Source: Gallionellaceae bacterium (lineage in GTDB: Bacteria > Pseudomonadota > Gammaproteobacteria > Burkholderiales > Gallionellaceae). From it: DNA of 13,612 nt. Position numbers and translations under genes: made by a program. The stretch is taken from assembly GCA_030646595.1 (NCBI GenBank), contig JAUSKS010000214.1, positions 1 to 13,612 of the forward strand. Reading direction: 5' to 3'. The notes under the pieces were generated by a model that ran no database searches, was not told where the DNA came from, and was given only the letters and a program-made list of their open reading frames with translations. The first letter of the stretch is position 1. Each line of letters begins with the position of its first letter. Positions 2,953-13,264 of this stretch are shown piece after piece.

Positions 2953-3037
2953 ATTTACTTGCGCTGCCACTGTCTTTACCCCATCCCCACTCTTCCCTGT
3001 TGAAGGCACACCTCTTTGCGATCCATTGCTTTTGCTA

Positions 3038-3063
3038 CCCTCTCCCGCTTGCGGGGAGAGGGG
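3038..3063. repeat. CCCTCTCC hairpin repeat, copy 1
   Basis: CCCTCTCCCGC (3038-3048) pairs with GCGGGGAGAGGG (3051-3063 region) around a TT loop, with one bulged base. A second copy follows 26 nt downstream. Such CCCTCTCC/GGAGAGGG palindromes are dispersed in many proteobacterial intergenic regions. Confidence 0.75.
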
Positions 3064-3089
3064 CTGGGGGAGAAATTCCCTCTCCCTAA

Positions 3090-3114
3090 CCCTCTCCCAC
3101 AAGTGGGAGAGGGG
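3090..3114. repeat. CCCTCTCC hairpin repeat, copy 2
   Basis: CCCTCTCCCAC (3090-3100) and GTGGGAGAGGG (3103-3113) form a perfect 11-bp stem around an AA loop. The segment between the copies (CCCTCTCCCTAA, 3078-3089) is a further half-site. The strong stem between convergent genes may terminate transcription, although no T-tract is present. Confidence 0.8.
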
Positions 3115-3123
3115 ACTTGTGTG

Positions 3124-3291
3124 CTAGCAGCCTGTCTGACTTGAAGGAAATCGGCTGCAAATCCGCCTGAGCGGTCCATATTTCACCGCTTTTTTGGTCA
3201 ATAGAACGACTATTGACCTGCAAAACCGGCAAAATCTGTCCTCGCTCAGCCGAATTTTCGCTCCGATTCTTCAAGTCAGACAGGCTGCTAG
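3124..3291. mobile_element. 168-bp palindromic MITE-like element
   Basis: The ends are perfect 23-bp inverted repeats, 3124-3146 (CTAGCAGCCTGTCTGAC...) and 3269-3291. The symmetry continues inward with mismatches (AATCGG, CTGAGCG, ATTT and CCG blocks on both arms) to a perfect 9-bp stem at the exact centre, GGTCAATAG (3196-3204) against CTATTGACC (3210-3218) with a 5-nt loop. The whole element can therefore fold as one long hairpin. It has no coding capacity. If the terminal TA belongs to a target-site duplication (TA at 3125-3126 and 3289-3290), a Tc1/mariner or IS630-type mobiliser would fit, but this is inference. Alternatives are a large REP/BIME-like structure or a bidirectional terminator. 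Confidence 0.6.
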
Positions 3292-3313: not shown

Positions 3314-6300
3314 TTATTGCGTTTTCACTTGCTTGAGCGGTAAAGTAACCATAAAAGTTGCACCTTGTCCCGGTGTGCTGCGGGCGGTGATAGTGCCGCC
3401 ATGCCGCTCGACGATTTTGCGGCACACGGCCAGGCCGATGCCGGTGCCTTCATAGTCACTGCGGCTGTGCAAGCGCTCAAAGATAATGAAGATGCGATCC
3501 AGGTATTTTTCATCGAAGCCGATGCCATTATCTTCAACCAGAATGGTGCAGGTGTTGGGGGCAGAGGATTGCTGATAAATTTTGACTACAGGTGCCGCCT
3601 CGCCCTTGAATTTCAGCGCATTGCCGATCAGGTTTTGCAGCAGTTGCCGCATTTGTGAGGGGTCAGCGTCTATGGTGGGTAATTCGCCAAGCTCCACCCG
3701 CCCGCCGCATTGCTCAATACGGATTTCCATATCACTCAATACTTCGCGCACACTCTGAGCCAGATCAGTCGGCACAAAGGGCTGCCCTTTGCTGGTGACG
3801 CGCGACAGGGTTAACAGGTCATTGATCAATGCTTGCATGCGCTCAGAAGCGTTCTGCATGCGCTTCAGATAATCACGGCCTTGTTCGCTCAATGATTCGC
3901 CACACGCACTTTGCAGGCGGTCGCCGAATGCCGAGATTTTGCGTAAGGGTTCCTGCAAATCATGCGCGGCAATTGAAGCAAAATCCTGCAACTCACGATT
4001 GCTTTGATCAAGTTGAGTGGCGAATTTTTTTAATTGCTCATCGGCTGTTTTTCGTTCAATGATGCGCCCCAGTTGTGTTGCTACGTGGCTCACTGCATTC
4101 AGCAATCGTGGCGTGATGGATGCAGTGTCGGTGGCAAAACATTCGAGCACAGCAGCCATCTCGCTACCAATAAATATCGGAAAACAGAAGTCTGCTGTAA
4201 TGCCCACTGCGCGCGCTTGCTGGGTGCGCGGATCGGCCGCATCCTTGTCGGCGTCATCAACTCTGACTACCTGTCCCTGTACAAATGTGTTGGCGTCGAA
4301 ATGAAGCTGTGGCGCATGGATAACTGAACAAAATTTGTCCAGCCGCTCAGGATCAGACAAATACCAGGCAGGGGCGGGAAGCAGGGTAGCGGGATTATTT
4401 TTGTCTACAAAATAGACATGGCCCGCAATCCAGCTGGCATACACGCAGATCTGCTTGATGCCAATTTTCATGGCGTCTTCAACATTGGCTGCTTCGTTGG
4501 CAAGCAGTGCAATTTTTTGCGCGATATATAAGGCTCCAGTATTTTGTTTTCTTTCCGTGATATCGCGGGCGATGATGGATATCCCGGTGATCTGGCTACC
4601 GCTGTCGCGGATGGGGGAAAGCGTGATGGAAACATCAATGTGTTTGGCATCCTTGCGCTGCATGATGGTTTCATAGTTCCGGGTATTTTCACCTGCGCGG
4701 ATTTTTTCCAGCAGGGGCGGTATTTCATCGCTACGGTTGGGGGGGCTGAACAGGGTAATCGCGCGCCCTTTTATTTCGGCTGCGGTATAGCCGAATATTT
4801 TTTCGGCGCCATTATTCCACGCAGTAATTTCCCCTTGCAGCGTGAGGCCAATCACCGCGTCTTCCGAAAATTCAACAATGGCGGCCATTTGCCCTAATGT
4901 TTTATCGGCATTTTTACGCTCGGTAATGTCGTGCAGAATAACGGAGTGTTCATTCAAATTGCTGTCCGATATTTTGGAAATAGCGACCTCGACTGTACGC
5001 CAACTACCGTCCTTATGCGGCAAGGTATATTCACTGCGTTCGGGTTGCACGTCAGGGATGAATTCATCCAGTTTTTTTCCGATAATCTGCCCGCCGCCCA
5101 GGCCCAGCAATGTTTCTGCGGCCGGATTGGCCAGGCGCACCACGCCGCGATTATTAATAACCAGAATGGCATCCCGTGCCGTCTGCAACAGGTGATGCGC
5201 TTCCAACACTGCCTGTTCCCGTGCTTCGCTGATGGTGGCCAGTTGCGGCAAGGTGGACCAGCAGGCAATCGCTACCCCGAAAAATCCGCTGAGCTGAATC
5301 AGGATCGCCAGCAGGCTGGCACTGACCTCGGCTTCATGTTGCACGGAATCCAGCAGAATATGGGCACCCCAGCCCATCGCCACTGCACTGGCGATGCCGC
5401 TGAACAATAAAATAATCTGCAGGATGACGTTATCCCTGATTTTTTCATACGGTCGCGCGCGGTAAAAATGCATCCACCAGGCAGGCTGAAAGATAGAGTT
5501 GGGCACCCATTGCACCAAAGAATCGACCGCCATTATCAGCAGCGGGAATAACAGGCCGATCAGAAAATCCTGCCAGTTCCAGGTCCAGCCGCCGGCTACG
5601 AAAATAATGATCTCCGCAATAAAAAATAGCAGCGACCAGCGTGGCCAGCGCACTTCAGGTTTATCGCGATTCAGCCACAAGCCCAAATGAAAAGCGATAA
5701 AGCTGAAAAAATAGCCGGTGCTGGAAATGATCAGCACATGGGTCAGATCACCCCACAACAGAAAAACCAGACTGACCAGTATGGTCAACACCAGCGCCGG
5801 GCCGGGGATATTGCGCCGCGAAACAACCTGGAAGACGGGTGCGGCCTGACCGTTTACCGCCATCTGATAAATCATGCGCGGCGAATTGGCACAGCCCGCT
5901 ACGCAACTGGTCAAGAGGCCGGCGGTAATCATGAAGGCGGCAAGAAAGAAGGAGGGAGTGCCCCAGAAATAGTGACTGGCGCGCACCAGATTATTATAAA
6001 CGTCGCCGTTATTGTGCGGCGTATTGGCCAAGCGCATCAATATCCAGGCTCCGCCAATAAAGACAAAGGGCAGCAACATGGCGACAGCGGAAAGACAACG
6101 CTGGGTATTAAGCGGCTTTTTGCCGTCCACCATGAAAGCAGACGCCGTTTCCATGCCATAGGCTGCGTAAGTCGCAACGAAATACCAGATGGCCCATTCG
6201 CGAAAGTTGAATTCCCCCCACTGTAGTGGTAGCAAGCCGCGGCTATCAGGCGAAAAGCTCAGCCAGGCCAAACCCTGCACACAGAAAACAAGCAGCAAAA

Positions 6301-6826
6301 CCATCGCGGGTATCACGAAAAAAAGCTGCAACACACTCAAGGCACGAGTGCCGGCAAAAGCCACGACAAAGGCAAATACCGTCAAGCTGATTTTGATCGG
6401 CCATTCCGGGAAATCGAGGTGCAGTGGAATGACCACATTATTCATGATCAGATGCGACAAAATAATGGCGCTGACAGTGGGTACGGAAGCCCAACCCTGA
6501 AAATAAGACAGGGCCGAGTACCGCGCCAGCAGAGGATAATTTTGCAGTAGGCGGGCAGTGTAATTGGGTGTGCCGCCTGCCATCTCCGGCCAGGCCACAG
6601 CCAGGCGGCGCACTTGCAAATTGATCATGATGCCGACCACCACCAGCGGCAGCCACACAAATATGGCCTGCGGCCCCAATGCCGCATGCACACTGGGCGC
6701 GATGCCCAGCCATACCAGAAAACCAGTGCAGCCAAAGCCCCAGATTTCCAGGCTGCTCAGGCTGGGCCGCAAGCGCCAGGACACAGCACCTTGCGCCGGG
6801 TCTGGTGTGTCGGGTTTGGTTAGCAT
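3314..6826 (-). CDS. APC-type transporter-histidine kinase fusion, PAS-PAS-GAF-HisKA-HATPase (1170 aa)
   Basis: Residues about 25-440 form a 12-helix membrane domain of amino-acid permease (APC) type. Helix 1 has GFGCTGFLVWLG (30-41), and the PEMAGGTPNYTARLL segment (80-94) matches the P-x-x-GG-x-Y region of APC transporters. Two further helices (about 466-492 and 500-525) lead into a helical linker (533-550). Next come PAS1 (about 545-637), PAS2 (about 645-760), GAF (about 770-925), HisKA with phospho-acceptor His955 in AAHDLQEP, and a HATPase with N-box NLIGNA (1065-1070), DNGIGF (1099-1104) and GTGIGL (1127-1132). All catalytic boxes look intact, and there is no receiver domain of its own. 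It probably senses or transports a small solute and passes phosphate to the Rcp1-like regulator at 8284-8742. The ATG has no Shine-Dalgarno sequence; heptamer repeats occupy that position. A GTG 14 codons later (after AAGG) is an alternative start. Confidence 0.85.
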   Translation of the reverse strand: MLTKPDTPDPAQGAVSWRLRPSLSSLEIWGFGCTGFLVWLGIAPSVHAALGPQAIFVWLPLVVVGIMINLQVRRLAVAWPEMAGGTPNYTARLLQNYPLLARYSALSYFQGWASVPTVSAIILSHLIMNNVVIPLHLDFPEWPIKISLTVFAFVVAFAGTRALSVLQLFFVIPAMVLLLVFCVQGLAWLSFSPDSRGLLPLQWGEFNFREWAIWYFVATYAAYGMETASAFMVDGKKPLNTQRCLSAVAMLLPFVFIGGAWILMRLANTPHNNGDVYNNLVRASHYFWGTPSFFLAAFMITAGLLTSCVAGCANSPRMIYQMAVNGQAAPVFQVVSRRNIPGPALVLTILVSLVFLLWGDLTHVLIISSTGYFFSFIAFHLGLWLNRDKPEVRWPRWSLLFFIAEIIIFVAGGWTWNWQDFLIGLLFPLLIMAVDSLVQWVPNSIFQPAWWMHFYRARPYEKIRDNVILQIILLFSGIASAVAMGWGAHILLDSVQHEAEVSASLLAILIQLSGFFGVAIACWSTLPQLATISEAREQAVLEAHHLLQTARDAILVINNRGVVRLANPAAETLLGLGGGQIIGKKLDEFIPDVQPERSEYTLPHKDGSWRTVEVAISKISDSNLNEHSVILHDITERKNADKTLGQMAAIVEFSEDAVIGLTLQGEITAWNNGAEKIFGYTAAEIKGRAITLFSPPNRSDEIPPLLEKIRAGENTRNYETIMQRKDAKHIDVSITLSPIRDSGSQITGISIIARDITERKQNTGALYIAQKIALLANEAANVEDAMKIGIKQICVYASWIAGHVYFVDKNNPATLLPAPAWYLSDPERLDKFCSVIHAPQLHFDANTFVQGQVVRVDDADKDAADPRTQQARAVGITADFCFPIFIGSEMAAVLECFATDTASITPRLLNAVSHVATQLGRIIERKTADEQLKKFATQLDQSNRELQDFASIAAHDLQEPLRKISAFGDRLQSACGESLSEQGRDYLKRMQNASERMQALINDLLTLSRVTSKGQPFVPTDLAQSVREVLSDMEIRIEQCGGRVELGELPTIDADPSQMRQLLQNLIGNALKFKGEAAPVVKIYQQSSAPNTCTILVEDNGIGFDEKYLDRIFIIFERLHSRSDYEGTGIGLAVCRKIVERHGGTITARSTPGQGATFMVTLPLKQVKTQ

Positions 6827-6830
6827 AGCT

Positions 6831-6951
6831 GTCAGTGGTCAGTGGTCAGTGGTCAGTTGACAGTTATCAGTTGTCAGTTGGCAGTAATAAATTTTCGCGG
6901 CGGAGCCGCACCACAAGCCTGATAACTGACTACTGTCAACTGGCATCTGAC
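6831..6951. repeat. Inverted array of GTCAGTK heptamers around a GC-rich hairpin
   Basis: On the plus strand, eight consecutive 7-nt units close to GTCAGT(T/G) run from 6831 to 6886; the first three are identical GTCAGTG. After an AT-rich spacer and a hairpin GCGGC-GGA-GCCGC (6897-6909), about 4.7 units of the same heptamer appear in the opposite orientation at 6919-6951 (AACTGAC, TACTGTC, AACTGGC, ATCTGAC). The two arms can pair. The right arm contains the stop codon (6936-6938) and last codons of the GGDEF gene, and the left arm directly abuts the ATG of the 1170-aa kinase. Confidence 0.85.
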
Positions 6952-8255
6952 ACCTCCGGCTGCCACACTTCATATCGTTTCCCCCCTGCAGTCTTGGCAC
7001 GGTACATGGCTATATCCGCATGGATCAACAAATCTTCCGGGCGTTTGCAATCATTACTCTCTTTGGGCGCAATACCGATACTGACATTGCATAATATTTC
7101 ATTGCCATCCAGATAGAATGGCTGGGCCAGTGCCTTGTGTATGCGTTCCGCCACTATGCTGGCATCACTCAGCGCTTTTATATCGTCCAGCAAAATAGTG
7201 AATTCATCTCCGCCCAGGCGCGCCAGCGTGTCTTCCGGGCGCAGACAGGATTCTACTTTTCGAGCGACATTAATCAGCAATTCATCTCCTATCATATGGC
7301 CCAGGTTATCGTTGACTGCCTTGAAATGATCAATGTCGATGAACAACACGGCATATAAATAATGAGGGGAGCGTTTGGTGCACTTTATGGCATGGCTTAA
7401 GCGATCCATAAAGAGAGAGCGATTGGGCAACCCGGTCAAGGAATCATGCAGCGCGTTGTATTTGAGTCTTTCCTGAGCCAGTTCGCGTTGCGTGATATCA
7501 GCCTGCGATCCAGCCATGCGGCTGGCGATATTATTGGTATCGCGCACTACCAACCCTCTAACCAATACCCAGCGCCAGGAGCCGTCCTTATGCAGGATGC
7601 GATGCTTGATTTCCATATCTTCCGTGGCACCGTCAATATGGGTGGCCAGCGTGGCTTTTACCTGATGCAAATCATCCGGATGGATACGGCTGAACCATTC
7701 CTGTGATTGATCGCCGATTTCAGTTTCCTGATAACCCAGCATGGATTTCCAGCGCGGAGAAAAATAAATCTGGCCGGTTTTTAAATTCCAGTCCCACAGA
7801 CCATCTTTAGCCCCACGCACGGCCAATGCATAACGCTCTTCGCTTTCGCGCAAGGCATCCAGGTTTTTCTTTCTTTCGATGGCATAGCGTATTGAGCGCT
7901 CCAGCATATCTGCATCTACTTTGCCTTTGACCAAGTAATCAGCCGCGCCCGATTCCAAGGCTTCCTTGTCCACACTGCGGTCGCCTTGTCCGGTCAGCAA
8001 AATAATCGGCGCATGAAAACCCAGCGCCTGCGCCTGGCGGATCAAGTCTATCCCGCTGCGCTCGCCCAGACGGTAATCGGCGATACAGGCATGGTAGCTG
8101 TTGCAACGGATGGCTTGCACTGCCGCCTCATAGGAAGTAACCCAATCCAGCTCAATATCATACTCTTTGACTTTGGACAGCCAGGTCTGTGCCAAGACGT
8201 AATCATCTTCCTCGTCTTCAACGAACAGCACTTTCAGATGATTCCTTGTTTTCAA
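6936..8255 (-). CDS. REC-PAS-GGDEF response regulator, diguanylate cyclase
   Basis: This 439-aa protein should make c-di-GMP from two GTP in response to phosphorylation. The receiver domain (about 6-128) has acidic residues in VEDEED (12-17), phospho-acceptor Asp60 in IADYRLGERSG, Thr88 in LLTGQG, and Lys110 in YLVKGKVD. A PAS domain with PAC motif covers about 138-256 (DGLWDWN, SPRWKSMLGY, HKDGSWRWV). The GGDEF domain (about 265-432) begins HDSLTGLPNR and has the intact motif GGDEF at 348-352. An RxxD inhibitory site, Arg339-Pro-Glu-Asp342, stands five residues before it, so feedback inhibition by product is expected. No EAL domain is present. The start is probably a TTG at 8253-8255, with GGAG 6 nt upstream and the receiver fold beginning a few residues later; the frame stays open further upstream to 8318, but that stretch overlaps the regulator gene and is not receiver-like. 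The last codons come from the heptamer repeat. Confidence 0.9.
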   Translation of the reverse strand: MKTRNHLKVLFVEDEEDDYVLAQTWLSKVKEYDIELDWVTSYEAAVQAIRCNSYHACIADYRLGERSGIDLIRQAQALGFHAPIILLTGQGDRSVDKEALESGAADYLVKGKVDADMLERSIRYAIERKKNLDALRESEERYALAVRGAKDGLWDWNLKTGQIYFSPRWKSMLGYQETEIGDQSQEWFSRIHPDDLHQVKATLATHIDGATEDMEIKHRILHKDGSWRWVLVRGLVVRDTNNIASRMAGSQADITQRELAQERLKYNALHDSLTGLPNRSLFMDRLSHAIKCTKRSPHYLYAVLFIDIDHFKAVNDNLGHMIGDELLINVARKVESCLRPEDTLARLGGDEFTILLDDIKALSDASIVAERIHKALAQPFYLDGNEILCNVSIGIAPKESNDCKRPEDLLIHADIAMYRAKTAGGKRYEVWQPEVSDAS

Positions 8256-8300
8256 TATTAACTCCTGGACTGGGTTTCCAATATTAACTCCTCGACTGGG
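8249..8300. repeat. 26-bp tandem duplication at regulator/cyclase junction
   Basis: Two adjacent 26-nt copies, 8249-8274 and 8275-8300, differ at only two positions. Read on the minus strand, each copy contains CAG-TC-S-AGG-AGT-TAA followed by ATATTG. The upstream copy (8275-8300) supplies the true stop codon of the Rcp1-like gene (TAA at 8284-8286). The downstream copy repeats that stop as a remnant and supplies the GGAG and TTG start of the GGDEF gene. Confidence 0.9.
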
Positions 8301-8742
8301 GCAGCCTGACAATTTCAAACCAGTAGGTAGCCAGGATTTTCATCAGGTCCACCAGGGAGATAAATGTCACCGGCTTGGTGATATAGGAATTTACACCCAT
8401 ATCATAGGTGCGGTATATATCTTCTTCGGCTTTGGAGGTGGTTAACACAACCACCGGAATGCGGCGCAAATTCTCATCCGCGCGGATTTCCTTGAGCGCC
8501 TCACGCCCGTCTTTGCGGGGCATGTTGAGGTCCAGTAAAATCAGGCCCGGCATGGGCGACAGCGCCGGGTCGCTGAACTTGCCGCGATGATGCAAATAAT
8601 CCATCAACTCTTCACCGTCTTCCACAAAGTGCAAAGGATTGGCCAAACGGCTTTCATGAAACGCATCCTTTATCATCATGCGGTCATCCGCGTCGTCATC
8701 TGCCACCAGAATGGAAATCGGCTGTTTGGAATCAGTGCTCAT
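8284..8742 (-). CDS. Rcp1-type single-domain response regulator
   Basis: This 152-aa protein is a lone receiver domain without an output domain. Acidic pocket residues are Asp15-17 in LVADDDADD, the phospho-acceptor is Asp71 in LLDLNMPRKDG, Thr101 lies in VVLTTSKAEED, and Lys123 in YITKP. The LDLNMPRKDGREAL, RIPVVVLTTS and C-terminal WFEIVRLP segments closely follow the Rcp1 family, whose partners are phytochrome-like kinases with an HDLQEPLR H-box, exactly the H-box of both kinases here. The start is the ATG at 8740-8742, with GGAG 8 nt upstream. It overlaps the end of the 908-aa kinase by 11 nt (ATGAGCACTGA), which implies translational coupling and a common transcript. The frame extends upstream of this ATG only as out-of-phase reading of the kinase gene. 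It probably relays phosphate or binds a target protein directly. Confidence 0.93.
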   Translation of the reverse strand: MSTDSKQPISILVADDDADDRMMIKDAFHESRLANPLHFVEDGEELMDYLHHRGKFSDPALSPMPGLILLDLNMPRKDGREALKEIRADENLRRIPVVVLTTSKAEEDIYRTYDMGVNSYITKPVTFISLVDLMKILATYWFEIVRLPQSRS

Positions 8743-11458
8743 TGTTGTTCTCCTTAAGTTGTAAGACGGGTAAAGTAACAATAAAGGTGGCGCCCATGCC
8801 GGGCGCGCTCTTGGCTGTGATGCCGCCGTTGTGGCGCTCGGCAATTTTGCGGCACACGGCCAGGCCGATGCCGGTGCCTTCGTAGGTATCACGTCCATGC
8901 AGGCGTTCAAAGGCAGTAAAAATACGATCCAGATATTTTTCGTTAAAGCCTATCCCGTTATCGGCCACCATGATCTGGCACATGCTGCTGCCGGGGGTAA
9001 CAGTCGCGTATATTTTAACCACCGGTGCCGCCTCGCCTTTGAATTTGAGCGCATTGCCGATCAGGTTTTGCAATAGTTGGCGCATTTGCATGGGGTCAGC
9101 AGAGATGACAGGCAAGTCCTGCAATTCTATTTTTGCCTGATGTTTTTCAATGGCCACTTCCAGATCAGATAACACCTCCTTGACGATCTGATTTAAATGC
9201 ACGGTTACGAAAGGCTGACCGCGAGTGGTGACGCGCGATAAAGTCAGCAGGTCGGTGATCAGGGATTGCATGCGCTCGGCCGCATTGCGCATCCGCCTCA
9301 AATAATCCAGCGCCTGTTCATTCATGGTAGTGGCGCAGAGATCCTGCAGACGTTCGCCGAACGCGGTAATTTTACGCAGCGGTTCCTGTAAATCATGCGC
9401 GGCGACCGAGGCAAAATCCTGCAATTCGCGATTGCTGTGTTCCAGATGCGCGGAAAATTGTTGCAGTTTTTCCTCCGCCTGTTTGCGCTCGGTGATGTCA
9501 TGCAAAATAATCGAGCGCTCGTTCATCTGGCCATCCGATATATCGGCAATCGCCACTTCGACGATGCGTAATGAGCCATTTGCCTGGGCCAGCCTATGTT
9601 CACTGCGTTTTTCTCCCTTGGCGATGGCCGCATCCACACCCGGAATCAGATCATCCAGGTGGCGTCCCCGCAGGCGTTCCTGTGGCAGCGTGAAAATATC
9701 TTCTGCAGCCGGGTTGGCCAAGCGGATAAGGCCGCGTTCGTCCACCACCAGAATGGCGTCCAGTGCACTTCTTAACAGATGTTGTGCCTCGGCAGCAGCT
9801 TGTTCGCGCGCTTCGCTAATCGAGGAAAGTTGCGGCAAGGTGGTCCAGCAGGCCGCGGCAATGGCAATAAATCCGGTAATCTGCAGGCTGATGCCGAATA
9901 GATTCAGCCGTAAATGTGCTATTTCGACATTGCCCAACAGATAATTGATGCCCCAGCCTAAAGTGAGGGCTACGGAAACCAGCACCAGCGTTACCGTTAC
10001 ATGGGATGCCAGGCTGTCAATTTTTTGCACATAAGGCCGCGGCCGATAAAGATGGATCCACCATGCCACCTGCAAGGGACCGCGCGGGATGCGCCGAATG
10101 AGGCTGTCCAGGCCCATCAGGACTGCCGGAAAGGCCAGACCCATCAAGAAATCCACACCGCTCCAGGCCAGGCCACCTACTACAAAGATGATTACTTCGA
10201 CCACAAAAAATCCCAATGACCACCACGGCCATCTTACTTCGGGTTTGCCGCGATTCAACCATAAACCCAGGTGCATGGCGATGAAGCAAAAAAAGTAGCC
10301 GGTGCAGGTAACCATTAATACGCGCGCCACATTACCCCACAGCAGAAACACCAGACTGACCAGCAAGGTTAACACCAAGGCGGGGCCGGGCACATTGCGC
10401 CGTGAAGCGACCCCAAATACAGGCGCGGCTTGGCCATCCAGCGCCATCTGGTACAGCACACGCGGAGAATTGGCGCAGCCCGTAGCACAACTTAACAAGC
10501 AGCCTGCGGTGATGAGGGAGATGACAATGAAGTAAGCAGACTTGCCCCAGAACGGCAAGCTGGCATTGAGCAAATTCAAGTAGACATTATCGGCATTGCC
10601 GGACACGCCGGAGGAGCGCATCAGCACCCACGAGCCGCCAATAAAAATCAGCGGAATCAATAAGGCAGCGGCGGATAAACAAAGCAGGGTATTCTGCGGG
10701 CGCTTGCTGTCCACCATAAAGGAAGAAGACGTTTCTACGGCATAGACGGCATAAGTTGCCACAAAGCACCATTTGGCCCACAGTATAAAATCAAAATGGC
10801 CCCAGGTCTCCGGCATGAAACCTGGGCTGTTCGCCGAAAAAGCCAGCCAGCCCAAGCCTTGCACACAAAAGGCCACCAGCAATCCGAACGCGGGCACGAC
10901 AAAGAACAGATGCAGAATACTCAGCGCGCGGGTGCCGGCAAAAGCCACGACAAATGCCAGCGCAGTTAGCGCAACTTTGAGTGTCCATGGCGGCACACCG
11001 GTAATGCCGGCAATATCCAGGTTGGTCATGATTATATCGGCCAGGATGATCGCACTGACCGTAGGCACGGAAGCCCAACCCTGAAAGTAAGCCATGCCGA
11101 CATAACGGGCCAGCCAGGGATGGTTTTTGAGCAAGCGCGCCGTGTAATTGGGGGTGCCTCCGGCCATTTCCGGCCAGTGCGCGGCCATGTGGCGGACCTG
11201 TAAATTAATCAAAATCCCGACCACGACTAACGGCAGCCACATGAGAATGGCTTGCGGCCCCAGCTCGCTATGCGCACCGGGTGCGGTACCCAGCCATAAC
11301 AGGAAACCCGTGAAACCAAAGCCCCAAACTTCAAGAGAGCTTAAGCTGGGAAAGAGACGAAAGAAGGAAAGAGAAGAAGCTGATTGAGGCGGGTTATTTT
11401 TTTTATAGGGGATGCTTGCAGAGCTTGTAACAACAGGAACATCTGTAGACACTGACAT
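8732..11458 (-). CDS. APC-type transporter-histidine kinase fusion, PAS-HisKA-HATPase (908 aa)
   Basis: This is the first gene of the signalling cluster and the shorter paralogue of the kinase at 3314-6826. Residues about 40-455 are a 12-helix APC-like membrane domain, with GFGFTGFLLWLG (46-57) and PEMAGGTPNYTARLL (96-110), nearly identical in these segments to the other kinase. Two more helices (about 486-508 and 518-540) precede a helical linker, one PAS domain (about 560-657), HisKA with His688 in AAHDLQEP, and HATPase with NLIGNA (798-803), DNGIGF (833-838) and GTGIGL (861-866). The PAS2 and GAF modules of the paralogue are absent. The start is the ATG at 11456-11458, supported by an excellent AAGGGAGG ribosome binding site 5 nt upstream; a TTG 18 nt further upstream lacks such a site. 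An integral inner-membrane location is certain; the transported or sensed solute cannot be read from the sequence, although an amino acid or amine is the natural guess for this fold. Confidence 0.9.
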   Translation of the reverse strand: MSVSTDVPVVTSSASIPYKKNNPPQSASSLSFFRLFPSLSSLEVWGFGFTGFLLWLGTAPGAHSELGPQAILMWLPLVVVGILINLQVRHMAAHWPEMAGGTPNYTARLLKNHPWLARYVGMAYFQGWASVPTVSAIILADIIMTNLDIAGITGVPPWTLKVALTALAFVVAFAGTRALSILHLFFVVPAFGLLVAFCVQGLGWLAFSANSPGFMPETWGHFDFILWAKWCFVATYAVYAVETSSSFMVDSKRPQNTLLCLSAAALLIPLIFIGGSWVLMRSSGVSGNADNVYLNLLNASLPFWGKSAYFIVISLITAGCLLSCATGCANSPRVLYQMALDGQAAPVFGVASRRNVPGPALVLTLLVSLVFLLWGNVARVLMVTCTGYFFCFIAMHLGLWLNRGKPEVRWPWWSLGFFVVEVIIFVVGGLAWSGVDFLMGLAFPAVLMGLDSLIRRIPRGPLQVAWWIHLYRPRPYVQKIDSLASHVTVTLVLVSVALTLGWGINYLLGNVEIAHLRLNLFGISLQITGFIAIAAACWTTLPQLSSISEAREQAAAEAQHLLRSALDAILVVDERGLIRLANPAAEDIFTLPQERLRGRHLDDLIPGVDAAIAKGEKRSEHRLAQANGSLRIVEVAIADISDGQMNERSIILHDITERKQAEEKLQQFSAHLEHSNRELQDFASVAAHDLQEPLRKITAFGERLQDLCATTMNEQALDYLRRMRNAAERMQSLITDLLTLSRVTTRGQPFVTVHLNQIVKEVLSDLEVAIEKHQAKIELQDLPVISADPMQMRQLLQNLIGNALKFKGEAAPVVKIYATVTPGSSMCQIMVADNGIGFNEKYLDRIFTAFERLHGRDTYEGTGIGLAVCRKIAERHNGGITAKSAPGMGATFIVTLPVLQLKENNNEH

Positions 11459-11879
11459 ATTACCTCCCTTAAACACAAAAATTCTTTTTATTGCAGCGCG
11501 TGTAGGCAGTAAGCAAATGAATTGTGCCTGACTACACCGCGGCTGGCAACACCATTCAGATCATCACCTTCAGTGCAGTGCAATCCCCTTAGCAATACGG
11601 CATTGCTTTCATTAAACAACGGGATGAGAGAGAGGGATACCTGTAATGTCTTACAGGTGAGCGCTGTGATCGTTGCATTTAAATCAAAGTTGTATTTAAC
11701 TCTTGATTATGGCTATCCGATTCGTTATTCTGCATTGCCAGCCATAACAATAAAGCTGGGGGCGCATAGTTAAGAATGAGGAACGATGTCAAGGGGGCAG
11801 TTTTCATGAACAAGTAAAATATATATGTCAGTTCATGGAAGCACCTGAGTTACTATAATTCATAAAGGAGGACTAAATA
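11459..11879. other. Divergent intergenic region between signalling cluster and peroxidase gene
   Basis: These 421 bases should hold promoters for both directions. I see no convincing sigma70 promoter and no supported gene. Two hairpins are visible: AGCAAT-ACGGC-ATTGCT (11591-11607) and the dyad at 11639-11658. The stretch 11800-11840 is AT-rich and contains two copies of a TTCATG(A/G)A-like word (11802-11809 and 11832-11839). Confidence 0.65.
11639..11658. promoter_or_regulatory. Perfect 8-bp dyad ACCTGTAA-N4-TTACAGGT
   Basis: ACCTGTAA (11639-11646) and TTACAGGT (11651-11658) are perfect inverted repeats separated by TGTC. The 20-bp size and symmetric form fit a dimeric regulator site. It lies 181 bp before the divergent kinase ATG and 222 bp before the peroxidase ATG. 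No known regulator motif is assigned with confidence. Confidence 0.45.
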
Positions 11880-12890
11880 ATGATAAACAGCATTTGTAAA
11901 TATCTATTTTTGGGTTTTACATTGATGATGGCCCTTTCTGCTAATGCAGCCAGTAAAAAAACCGATCCTTATCTTCGCCCCATTCCTGTCCCCTATCCTG
12001 CTGATAACGTACCGACTGCCGAGCGAGTGGAGCTCGGTAAAAAATTATTTTTTGATCCCAGATTATCTGGCTCGGAATGGATCAGTTGCGCCACCTGCCA
12101 TAATCCTGCGCTGTCCTGGTCTGATGCTCTGCCTACCATGATAGGCAACAAGATGGCCAAAGGGAATCGCAGCACACCGACCATTTTGAATACTGCCTAC
12201 AACAAAATGCAATTCTGGGATGGCCGCGCAGGCACGCTGGAAGAACAAGCTCTGGGGCCTATTCAGGCACCGGGCGAAATGCATCAGGACCTGGATGAAC
12301 TGGTCAAACGCCTGACGGCAATTGAGGGTTACCGGGCTGCATTTGATGTGGCTTATCCCGATGAAGGCATCAGCAAGCAAACCATAGCCAAGGCAATTGC
12401 CAGTTTTGAGCGTAGTGTGGTGTCTACTGAAGCTCCTTTTGACCGCTGGCGCATGGGGGATCAAAAAGCCCTTAGCGAGTCTGCCAAACGGGGATTCAAG
12501 CTGTTTGAAGGTAAGGCCAACTGTGCCGCTTGCCATCAGGCATTCAATTTTGCCGATGATGGATTTCACAACATTGGTTTGCCGATGAGTGGCCAAGAAG
12601 ATGTAGGCCGCTTTGCACATCGCAAAGTCAAAGTTAATAAGGGCGCATTCAAAACGCCTACCTTGCGCGATATTGATCTGACCGCTCCTTACATGCACAA
12701 TGGTGCCTACAATACACTGGATGAAGTAGTGGAACATTACAACAAAGGGGGGGTAACTTTGGACAACCTGGACCCGAACATGAAACCCTTGAACTTGAAT
12801 GATCAAGAGAAAAAGGACATCGTGGCTTTCTTGAAAAGCTTGACCGGCAAGCCGATGGCACTGGTCGTTCCTATTTTGCCTGTCCGTTAA
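11880..12890 (+). CDS. Diheme cytochrome c peroxidase / MauG-family protein
   Basis: This 336-aa protein has a Sec signal peptide (hydrophobic 7-20, likely cleavage after Ala21-Asn-Ala23), so it acts in the periplasm. Two c-type heme sites are present: CATCH (70-74) and CAACH (215-219). Family landmarks are LFFDPRLSGS (56-65), NRSTPTILN (96-104), QFWDGRAGTLEEQALGPIQ (111-129), the catalytic-type Glu133 in PGEM, FKTPTLRDI (257-265) and APYMHNGAYNTLDEVV (269-284). Length is normal for the bacterial diheme peroxidase family, which reduces H2O2 to water or, in MauG, carries out protein oxidation. Two ligand positions look unusual: Asn90 (in MIGN) where classical enzymes have the distal His of the peroxidatic heme, and Tyr287 (in EHYNKGG) where they have the axial Met, the latter as in MauG. 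The start has a strong AAAGGAGG site 8 nt upstream. A cupredoxin gene follows 38 nt after the stop. Confidence 0.92.
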   Translation: MINSICKYLFLGFTLMMALSANAASKKTDPYLRPIPVPYPADNVPTAERVELGKKLFFDPRLSGSEWISCATCHNPALSWSDALPTMIGNKMAKGNRSTPTILNTAYNKMQFWDGRAGTLEEQALGPIQAPGEMHQDLDELVKRLTAIEGYRAAFDVAYPDEGISKQTIAKAIASFERSVVSTEAPFDRWRMGDQKALSESAKRGFKLFEGKANCAACHQAFNFADDGFHNIGLPMSGQEDVGRFAHRKVKVNKGAFKTPTLRDIDLTAPYMHNGAYNTLDEVVEHYNKGGVTLDNLDPNMKPLNLNDQEKKDIVAFLKSLTGKPMALVVPILPVR

Positions 12891-12928
12891 TCCACAGTTT
12901 CTTATTGACCAATGATCGGAGCTACCCC

Positions 12929-13264
12929 ATGAAAAAATATCATTCCCTGTTTTCAATGTTTATCCTGGTGACCTTCAGTGCCTCAGTATTGGCCGAGGCC
13001 GAGGTTAAGTCGTACGTTGTTACCCAGAAGGAGAAGAAATTCAGTGAGGAAAAGTTAAAAATAAAAGTAGGTGACTCAATTGATTTCAAGAATGATGATC
13101 CCTGGTTCCATAATGTGTTTTCTCTGTCTGATGTACAGAATTTTGACCTTGGCTCTTATCCCAAGGGGCAGTTCAAAACTGTAGTATTTAACAAAGAGGG
13201 GAAGCTGGATGTGGAATGTGCCATTCATCCCCAAATGCATATGGTGGTAGAGGTTACTAAATAA
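12929..13264 (+). CDS. Small periplasmic cupredoxin (plastocyanin/amicyanin-like)
   Basis: The protein has 111 aa, with a signal peptide at 1-22 (likely cleavage after Val20-Leu-Ala22). The mature domain is a cupredoxin: GDSIDFKNDDPWFHNVFS carries the first His ligand, His61, and the C-terminal loop Cys97-Ala-Ile-His100-Pro-Gln-Met103 gives the other type 1 copper ligands. The Cys-x2-His-Pro-x-Met spacing is like amicyanin; Met105 would instead match plastocyanin/pseudoazurin spacing, so the axial Met is not certain. The ATG at 12929 is chosen because GGAG lies 7 nt upstream and the signal peptide starts MKK; an in-frame TTG 24 nt earlier is less likely. It sits 38 nt downstream of the diheme peroxidase gene, probably in the same operon, so it is a good candidate for that enzyme's electron donor. 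This pairing is inferred from position. Confidence 0.9.
   Translation: MKKYHSLFSMFILVTFSASVLAEAEVKSYVVTQKEKKFSEEKLKIKVGDSIDFKNDDPWFHNVFSLSDVQNFDLGSYPKGQFKTVVFNKEGKLDVECAIHPQMHMVVEVTK

Follow-up and report, generated by a model that had tools for sequence, protein, structure and literature searches.

The window described here, by which we mean the whole 13,612-nucleotide stretch of DNA that was analyzed, spans positions 1 to 13,612 of contig JAUSKS010000214.1 in assembly GCA_030646595.1 of a Gallionellaceae bacterium. Its minus strand holds four genes, all of them real and intact: kinA, a lone receiver gene, a REC-PAS-GGDEF gene and kinB (Table 1). The first-pass annotation of the window had described a same-strand run of four genes with two fusions of a permease to a histidine kinase, and this is confirmed by the open reading frames and by Pfam, with PAS, HisKA and HATPase_c over the Pfam cut-offs in KinA as well as in KinB. 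We present the two fusions as a real and apparently uncharacterized variant of the transporter-domain sensor kinase, an APC-type receptor from a family centered on cyanobacteria that is joined here to a pre-existing cyclic di-GMP (c-di-GMP) cassette. The identity of the membrane domain, the order of the genes, the partial repeat of that order elsewhere in the genome and the different kin of the two protein halves are established at the level of sequence.

Table 1. Coordinates of the four genes, their main domains and the features between them
Feature	Position	Strand	Evidence or boundary
kinA: APC membrane domain-PAS-HisKA (HDLQEPLR)-HATPase_c, 908 aa	8732..11458	-	ATG at 11458 behind GGGAGG
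KinA APC-type membrane domain (residues 41-552, 914-aa frame)	9821..11356	-	phmmer boundaries, PF00324, hhalign, hydropathy
KinA PAS domain	9479..9769	-	PF08448
KinA HisKA-HATPase_c core	8765..9424	-	PF00512, PF02518; best solved-structure matches 8f71 and bacteriophytochromes
Rcp1-type single-domain receiver, 152 aa	8284..8742	-	ATG at 8742 behind AGGAG; 11-base overlap with kinA end
26-base tandem duplication with ribosome-binding site and TTG start of GGDEF gene	8248..8299	-	
REC-PAS-GGDEF protein, 439 aa	6936..8255	-	TTG behind AGGAG
Stretch over 109-base spacer separating kinB from GGDEF gene; predicted strong hairpin followed by TGACCAC tandem repeats	6824..6940	-	
kinB: APC membrane domain-PAS-PAS-GAF-HisKA (HDLQEPLR)-HATPase_c, 1170 aa	3314..6826	-	Pfam; GAF matches under cut-offs
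KinB APC-type membrane domain (residues 20-530)	5237..6769	-	phmmer boundaries, identity to KinA, profile match

The kinA frame was listed from a GTG at 11476, which gives 914 residues, and 6 has to be subtracted to obtain numbering from the ATG. At the DNA level kinA and kinB are diverged duplicates, with 70-87% identity in seven paired blocks. The spacer before kinB lies within a 117-base stretch that folds better than all 200 of its shuffles (z -4.1) and is predicted to form a long-stem hairpin, and it contains two overlapping terminator-like matches on the minus strand (6910-6896 and 6916-6895); across the whole region there are 24 such matches, against 11.0 in shuffles. Because of this hairpin and these matches, co-transcription of the four genes cannot be taken for granted. 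The one 16-base pattern with which the spacer repeats were tried as a genome-wide element occurs once in the genome.

The membrane domain and its pocket

In KinA the Pfam family AA_permease (PF00324) is found with an E-value of 3.8e-9 and 36.2 bits, over the cut-off of 24.6, and two database relatives, P0002 and P0006, exceed this cut-off as well. The membrane part of KinB is 58-60% identical to that of KinA. Among 22 family members at E<=0.1, PF00324 is matched in 12 and PF13520 in 6, and no SSS family occurs among the Pfam matches of KinA, KinB or these 22 proteins. When the 22 members were searched as a profile against the PDB, the sole chain at E<1 was that of the lysine permease LysP (9eyd, 1.2e-7); a single-sequence search of the PDB returned just an unrelated-looking chain at 0.13. 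Using hhalign, we also set the family against transporters of E. coli K-12, three from APC and three from SSS. The APC set (LysP, AroP and GabP) aligned with a probability of 95.6 and an E-value of 1.1e-8 over 297 columns, whereas the SSS set (PutP, ActP and PanF) gave a probability of 0.2 and an E-value of 0.31. Pfam, the PDB profile search and hhalign thereby bear out the APC identity that had been proposed from the letters of the sequence. Because the profile comparison favors APC, the membrane domain does not fall in SSS, and membership of the SSS or CbrA type was rejected.

The membrane part joins the PAS domain directly in both kinases. No STAC domain appears among their Pfam matches, where the presence of a STAC model in the library was not checked, and the viral protein families gave no match to the KinA membrane domain. 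The sole name that NCBIfam gives for the membrane domains, a trimethylamine N-oxide permease, was set aside: its scores of 29 and 35 bits fall far short of the cut-off of 690, and the matches are too weak for naming a ligand. Family-averaged hydropathy has 15 peaks, of which three are weak (residues 63, 246 and 349). Leaving out the peak at 349, we read the profile as 14 putative helices, 12 of them APC-like and followed by a hairpin that leads into PAS. The permease domain had been placed in the first ~440-455 residues; its APC-like nature stands, and its end has to be moved, as the hydropathy extends the domain to about residue 550.

A protein database search with KinA residues 1-540 found 339 relatives, of which 120 were listed, and 63 of these 120 were aligned with the three family members of this genome to give a set of 66 proteins. 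In APC carriers, a lysine in transmembrane helix 5 (TM5) is linked to proton coupling. It is present in E. coli LysP (K163), AroP and GabP, and two alignments, with 9eyd and with E. coli LysP, place it at A196 of KinA (914-residue frame). The A196 column holds alanine in 65 of the 66 proteins and serine in the other, beside a proline found in 66/66. Other landmarks are kept. Of the acidic residues in TM6, LysP E222 corresponds to KinA E248 (E in 65/66, D in 1/66) and LysP E230 to KinA D256 (D in 60/66, E in 6/66); the TM6 proline P260 is retained in 64/66, and the TM3 motif GGTPNY is conserved in the family. For TM1, the comparison drew on the stretches L158 and L161, as L155 and L156 lack the N-terminus and L157 and L159 gave no permease frame, and it carries too little weight to be of use. 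The retained TM6 acids and the missing TM5 lysine lead us to favor a receptor over a flux meter, with a pocket probably retained for binding and the usual coupling residue gone. It is for want of this lysine that we speak of an APC-type domain rather than of an APC transporter. The first-pass annotation had named nutrient flux as the signal, which now looks doubtful, given that the substitution of the lysine fits a receptor at least as well.

Could the domain still be an active transceptor, in which transport continues and the kinase reads the transport cycle, that is flux, as discussed for CbrA? We regard this as unlikely while taking it seriously. The membrane domain is highly conserved (the mean share of the majority residue is 0.70, against 0.49 in PAS, 0.67 in HisKA and 0.65 in HATPase), the TM6 acids and GGTPNY are conserved too, and the SLC5 domain of CbrA transports histidine, according to the accessible part of the source (PMC13022988). 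Against it stands the absence of the TM5 lysine from all 66 aligned members. A weaker objection is that PF13520 was unmatched at 1e-20 in 9/9 other sampled members of the genus, where PF00324 was not searched, so that such permeases seem untypical of the genus.

Distribution of the membrane module

The APC module is at home in cyanobacteria. In the genome collection, 236 stretches encode a relative, and the best 80 of the 236, which were kept, are all from Cyanobacteriota. In the lineage of the window, the module was found in its own genome only, which was counted each time: one of 19 genomes of the genus (at E 1e-20), and one each of 399 of the order, 369 of the class and 349 of the phylum (at 1e-60 in these overlapping draws). 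As no other genome in these draws carries it, inheritance within the genus was rejected.

Its outputs are varied. Among the 120 listed relatives, 79 carry a histidine kinase H-box of the HE..NP type, 12 carry GGDEF and EAL, 2 carry HDLQEPL (the window's own) and 1 carries HDLRSPL; the other 26 match none of these output patterns, four of them carrying SpoIIE (PF07228). P0002, which is labeled Gammaproteobacteria and is 61% identical to KinA, has the architecture APC-PAS-GGDEF-EAL. We also noted five proteins, P0027, P0054, P0072, P0108 and P0248, in which the APC module is fused to SpoIIE-type phosphatases; P0248 is from Limnofasciculus baicalensis, the organism of L096, one of the collected stretches. 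Two APC-kinase-like proteins from a search with the third APC kinase of this genome (HK3), P0276 and P0277, are labeled Actinobacteria/Actinomycetota and reflect either real spread or mislabeled contigs.

This range of outputs bears on the idea that the permease domain does no more than anchor the kinase in the membrane, leaving it to the PAS domains to sense redox or small molecules in the cytoplasm. Both kinases do have PAS, which could do the sensing by itself, and KinB has an extra PAS and a GAF-like domain. The membrane domain is nevertheless better conserved than PAS, and outputs of at least three unlike kinds are attached to this one module; we consider an inert anchor very unlikely.

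To describe gene neighborhoods, we used the 80 cyanobacterial loci, which contain 83 APC genes and many of which have short flanks. A lone receiver lies next to 0 of the 54 HEINNP-type genes with room for one (58 in all) and next to 9 of the 11 HEI(R/K)NP-type genes with room (13 in all); the three GGDEF-EAL fusions have no receiver next to them, and the nine other APC genes have one in 1/8 cases with room. In 1/80 loci there is a separate GGDEF gene, 6.4 kb away and on the other strand.

The kinase cassette and the proposed mechanism

The best solved-structure matches of the lone receiver are 5te9, RphyB, RcpA, RcpB and Rcp1, and those of the HDLQEPLR kinase core are 8f71 and bacteriophytochromes. 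The earlier view that an Rcp1-type receiver sits beside an HDLQEPLR kinase is upheld by these matches. From the histidine onward, KinA and KinB read HDLQEPLRKI(T/S)AFG(E/D)RLQ, with two differences, both conservative, and this near identity makes a shared partner plausible; the further suggestion that the two kinases integrate two related solutes is unproven. HK3 differs in this stretch and has its own receiver. In the REC-PAS-GGDEF protein the GGDEF motif is intact and an RxxD lies five residues before it, motifs that we take in their customary sense and from which cyclase activity is predicted. Elsewhere in the same genome, positions 2-934 of contig C49 encode a protein that is 77% identical to the REC-PAS-GGDEF protein of the window (residues 122-432) and is cut by the start of the contig; its neighborhood could be another cassette.

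The gene order recurs within the genome, which carries three APC kinases in all. On contig C162, an Rcp1-like receiver (35% identical to that of the window) comes after HK3, and after it a REC-PAS protein (28%). On contig C206 a non-APC kinase precedes an Rcp1-like receiver, which in turn precedes a REC-GGDEF gene. On C317, too, a non-APC kinase comes before a receiver, and the REC-PAS protein that follows is cut off by the end of the contig ahead of any GGDEF. A possible fourth APC kinase, on C312, was unsupported: its 24 residues and one helix before PAS gave no useful match to KinA or KinB, and its N-terminus is cut by the contig end.

Related genomes have the same arrangement with other sensors. 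Around the best kinase matches we surveyed 20 stretches from 19 genomes, and since they were chosen as best matches, their rates are not those of a random survey. Of the 20, 16 have a same-strand Rcp1-like receiver adjoining the matched kinase, and 9 have a GGDEF gene as the next one. For the ten HDLQEPLR kinases among them these figures are 9/10 and 8/10. In two further stretches (L141 and L144) the matched kinase has a second kinase at its side, and it is this second one that the receiver adjoins; in another (L135) the GGDEF gene lies two genes further on. As the kinase-receiver-GGDEF order recurs with other sensors, we regard the downstream genes as a recurring cassette and the sensor as its exchangeable part. 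The set is therefore not specific to the APC sensor. The c-di-GMP output proposed in the first-pass annotation is supported by the partial second copy of the gene order on C162 and by the direct APC-GGDEF-EAL fusions, and may be predicted from them.

The two halves of the proteins have different nearest kin. In a tree of the membrane domain, for which 72 of 121 rows were used, KinA, KinB, HK3, P0002, P0004 and P0006 share one side of a branch (SH-aLRT 100), opposite 66 database rows whose named kin are cyanobacterial. In the tree of kinase cores, 47 of 92 rows passed the filters, and the kinases of C206, L146, L148 and L150 were dropped together with 18 of the 20 database rows. Here KinA and KinB stand among the HDLQEPLR kinases of the relatives (97), while HK3 groups with P0006 (100). 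The neighbor of KinB in this tree is the C312 kinase from the same genome (93), to which KinB is 76% identical as compared with 68% to KinA; as far as the contig shows before it cuts the N-terminus, the C312 kinase has no APC part. Such different kin would be expected if a module had been spliced more than once onto kinases already resident, and the APC sensor appears, as judged from these trees, to have been spliced onto an existing c-di-GMP cassette.

Taken as a whole, the evidence tips us, by a little, toward the reading that KinA and KinB are receptor kinases whose APC-fold domain has been turned into a ligand sensor, feeding the Rcp1-type receiver and/or the REC-PAS-GGDEF protein and so c-di-GMP, and that the module was joined to the kinases of a resident cassette. 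In the mechanism that we propose, the permease pocket would bind a small solute, which is probably an amino acid or another small amine-type compound. Binding would move the last transmembrane hairpin and the helix into PAS, and this would switch autophosphorylation of the HDLQEPLR histidine. The phosphate would pass to the Rcp1-type receiver and/or the REC domain of the REC-PAS-GGDEF protein, where, as the recurring cassette suggests, it would set c-di-GMP synthesis. As to origin, the APC-PAS module of a mainly cyanobacterial family would have been joined to kinases of the resident kinase-Rcp1 receiver-REC-GGDEF cassette.

Several observations pull the other way. Scored alone, KinB reaches 19.8 bits for PF00324, under the cut-off of 24.6. 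The pocket and helix assignments depend on sequence alignments, two of which carry the match of the lysine to an alanine, and loss of the lysine does not exclude transport by other means. The kinase tree came with a warning of long branches meeting. The C162 contig ends where the GGDEF domain would start, so that any GGDEF lies beyond it. The cassette order is not strict either, as 4 of the 20 stretches from relatives have no adjoining receiver and 11 have no GGDEF gene next. KinB may be transcribed apart from the other three genes. In the 80 cyanobacterial loci, many of them short-flanked, no GGDEF gene adjoins an APC gene. Cyanobacterial kinases with a lone receiver and no adjoining GGDEF count against a universal c-di-GMP output, and we limit that claim to the lineage of the window and to the direct fusions.

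Finally, the lone receiver could be the sole output. This Rcp1-type protein would then be the true partner and act by protein contact, for example in motility or polysaccharide export, and the REC-PAS-GGDEF protein would answer other kinases. The cyanobacterial HEI(R/K)NP-type kinases have just such receivers without an adjoining GGDEF, the receiver gene of the window overlaps kinA, and receivers outnumber GGDEF genes (16 against 9) beside the 20 matched kinases of relatives. The frequency of a following GGDEF gene in the HDLQEPLR cases and the existence of APC-GGDEF-EAL fusions speak against it, and we judge a lone-receiver output to be quite improbable.

A broader proposal is that bacteria have a large and undescribed class of receptors built on APC-fold domains, which lost the coupling lysine and were shuffled onto unlike outputs (several histidine kinase types, GGDEF-EAL and SpoIIE phosphatases), and that in the lineage of the window such domains were spliced at least twice into a kinase-Rcp1-diguanylate cyclase cassette, giving solute-controlled c-di-GMP without a separate transporter. 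We put this forward tentatively, as an idea whose chances fall somewhat short of even.

A binning or assembly artefact, with a cyanobacterial contig mis-assigned to another genome, would explain why an otherwise mainly cyanobacterial family turns up in a single one of the 19 genus genomes. The contig's ATPase, which resembles XrtA/PEP-CTERM ATPases (TIGR03015, 303 bits, under the cut-off of 324.5), is 74% identical to one in a genus member, a match that ties the contig to the genus. The usual owners of this ATPase gene are proteobacteria, which suggests a proteobacterial host. The APC module is present on two contigs of the bin, and the kinase halves are of the relatives' type. An artefact is thus hardly credible to us. 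Synteny with the nearest genus member (L122, a single 15-kb contig) showed nothing in common except the ATPase.

Other features of the window lie outside the four genes. Just downstream of kinB, at 3124-3291, is a 168-base element whose ends are perfect inverted repeats of 23 bases; it is 76% identical to its own complement, is single-copy in the genome and looks like a small mobile or terminator-like element. Short stretches of 3032-3117 match several sites in a contig of a same-order relative (L125), at 72-95% over 40-89 bases, as dispersed repeats would. At one end, 2-1822 on the minus strand encodes a large predicted protein with a PKD domain that is open at the end of the window. At the other, a di-haem cytochrome c peroxidase (MauG/CCP) gene and then a cupredoxin gene occupy 11880-13264 on the plus strand, divergent from kinA.

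Comparison with known systems

The permease-PAS-HisKA architecture had been thought uncharacterized. Within the literature searched on transporter- and permease-type kinases (titles and starts of abstracts among the matches listed, with most subscription journals outside reach), we found no characterization of an APC-type histidine kinase; the architecture is, however, widespread in Cyanobacteria and not unique to the window.

If our reading is true, there is an APC-type receptor family with hundreds of relatives (the 236 stretches and 339 proteins) and swappable outputs, in which the step from transporter to receptor becomes testable. The proposed receptors would have a sequence signature, namely a missing TM5 lysine and retained TM6 acids, and they would offer a candidate route by which a solute outside the cell could act directly on c-di-GMP. 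Receptors with a transporter fold are considered rare: the available text of one source states that earlier reported transceptors appear as oddities, and adds a class of S-component receptors (PMC11109136).

The SLC5/STAC sensor kinases CbrA, CrbS/MxtR and RpuS have, in the parts of the sources that were accessible, a transporter-fold domain N-terminal to a histidine kinase (PMC7918813, PMC13022988, PMC9100948). KinA and KinB are alike in this layout, so far as those excerpts describe it, and they differ in that their domain is of the APC type, not SSS, and joins PAS directly. Unlike CbrA, which works with a CbrB-type regulator, they would have an Rcp1-type receiver and a GGDEF protein as partners.

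Ks-Amt5, an ammonium sensor kinase, offers a parallel with another fold. There, the Amt fold serves as the receptor of a fused histidine kinase and binds NH4+ without translocation, according to the portion of the report at hand (PMC5764959). On that partial account an uptake-transporter fold, Amt, was recruited there as a kinase receptor, as we propose for APC here.

LysP, in the accessible part of its source, is a lysine permease that also reports lysine to the regulator CadC (PMC6320335). In the PDB, the family described here has its best match in a LysP chain. The difference is that LysP and CadC are separate proteins, and that LysP transports and has the TM5 lysine.

Yeast Ssy1, which we take to be a member of the APC permeases, is not known to have a fused histidine kinase. 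It is presented, in the available excerpt of its source, as a transporter-like amino-acid sensor that has lost transport (PMC5890159). As far as that excerpt goes, it resembles the proposed receptors in being transporter-like, and differs in being eukaryotic.

The kinase core and the lone receiver have bacteriophytochrome kinases and Rcp1-type receivers among their best solved structures. In KinA and KinB the sensor is a membrane permease domain, not a phytochrome, and the set includes a REC-PAS-GGDEF gene.

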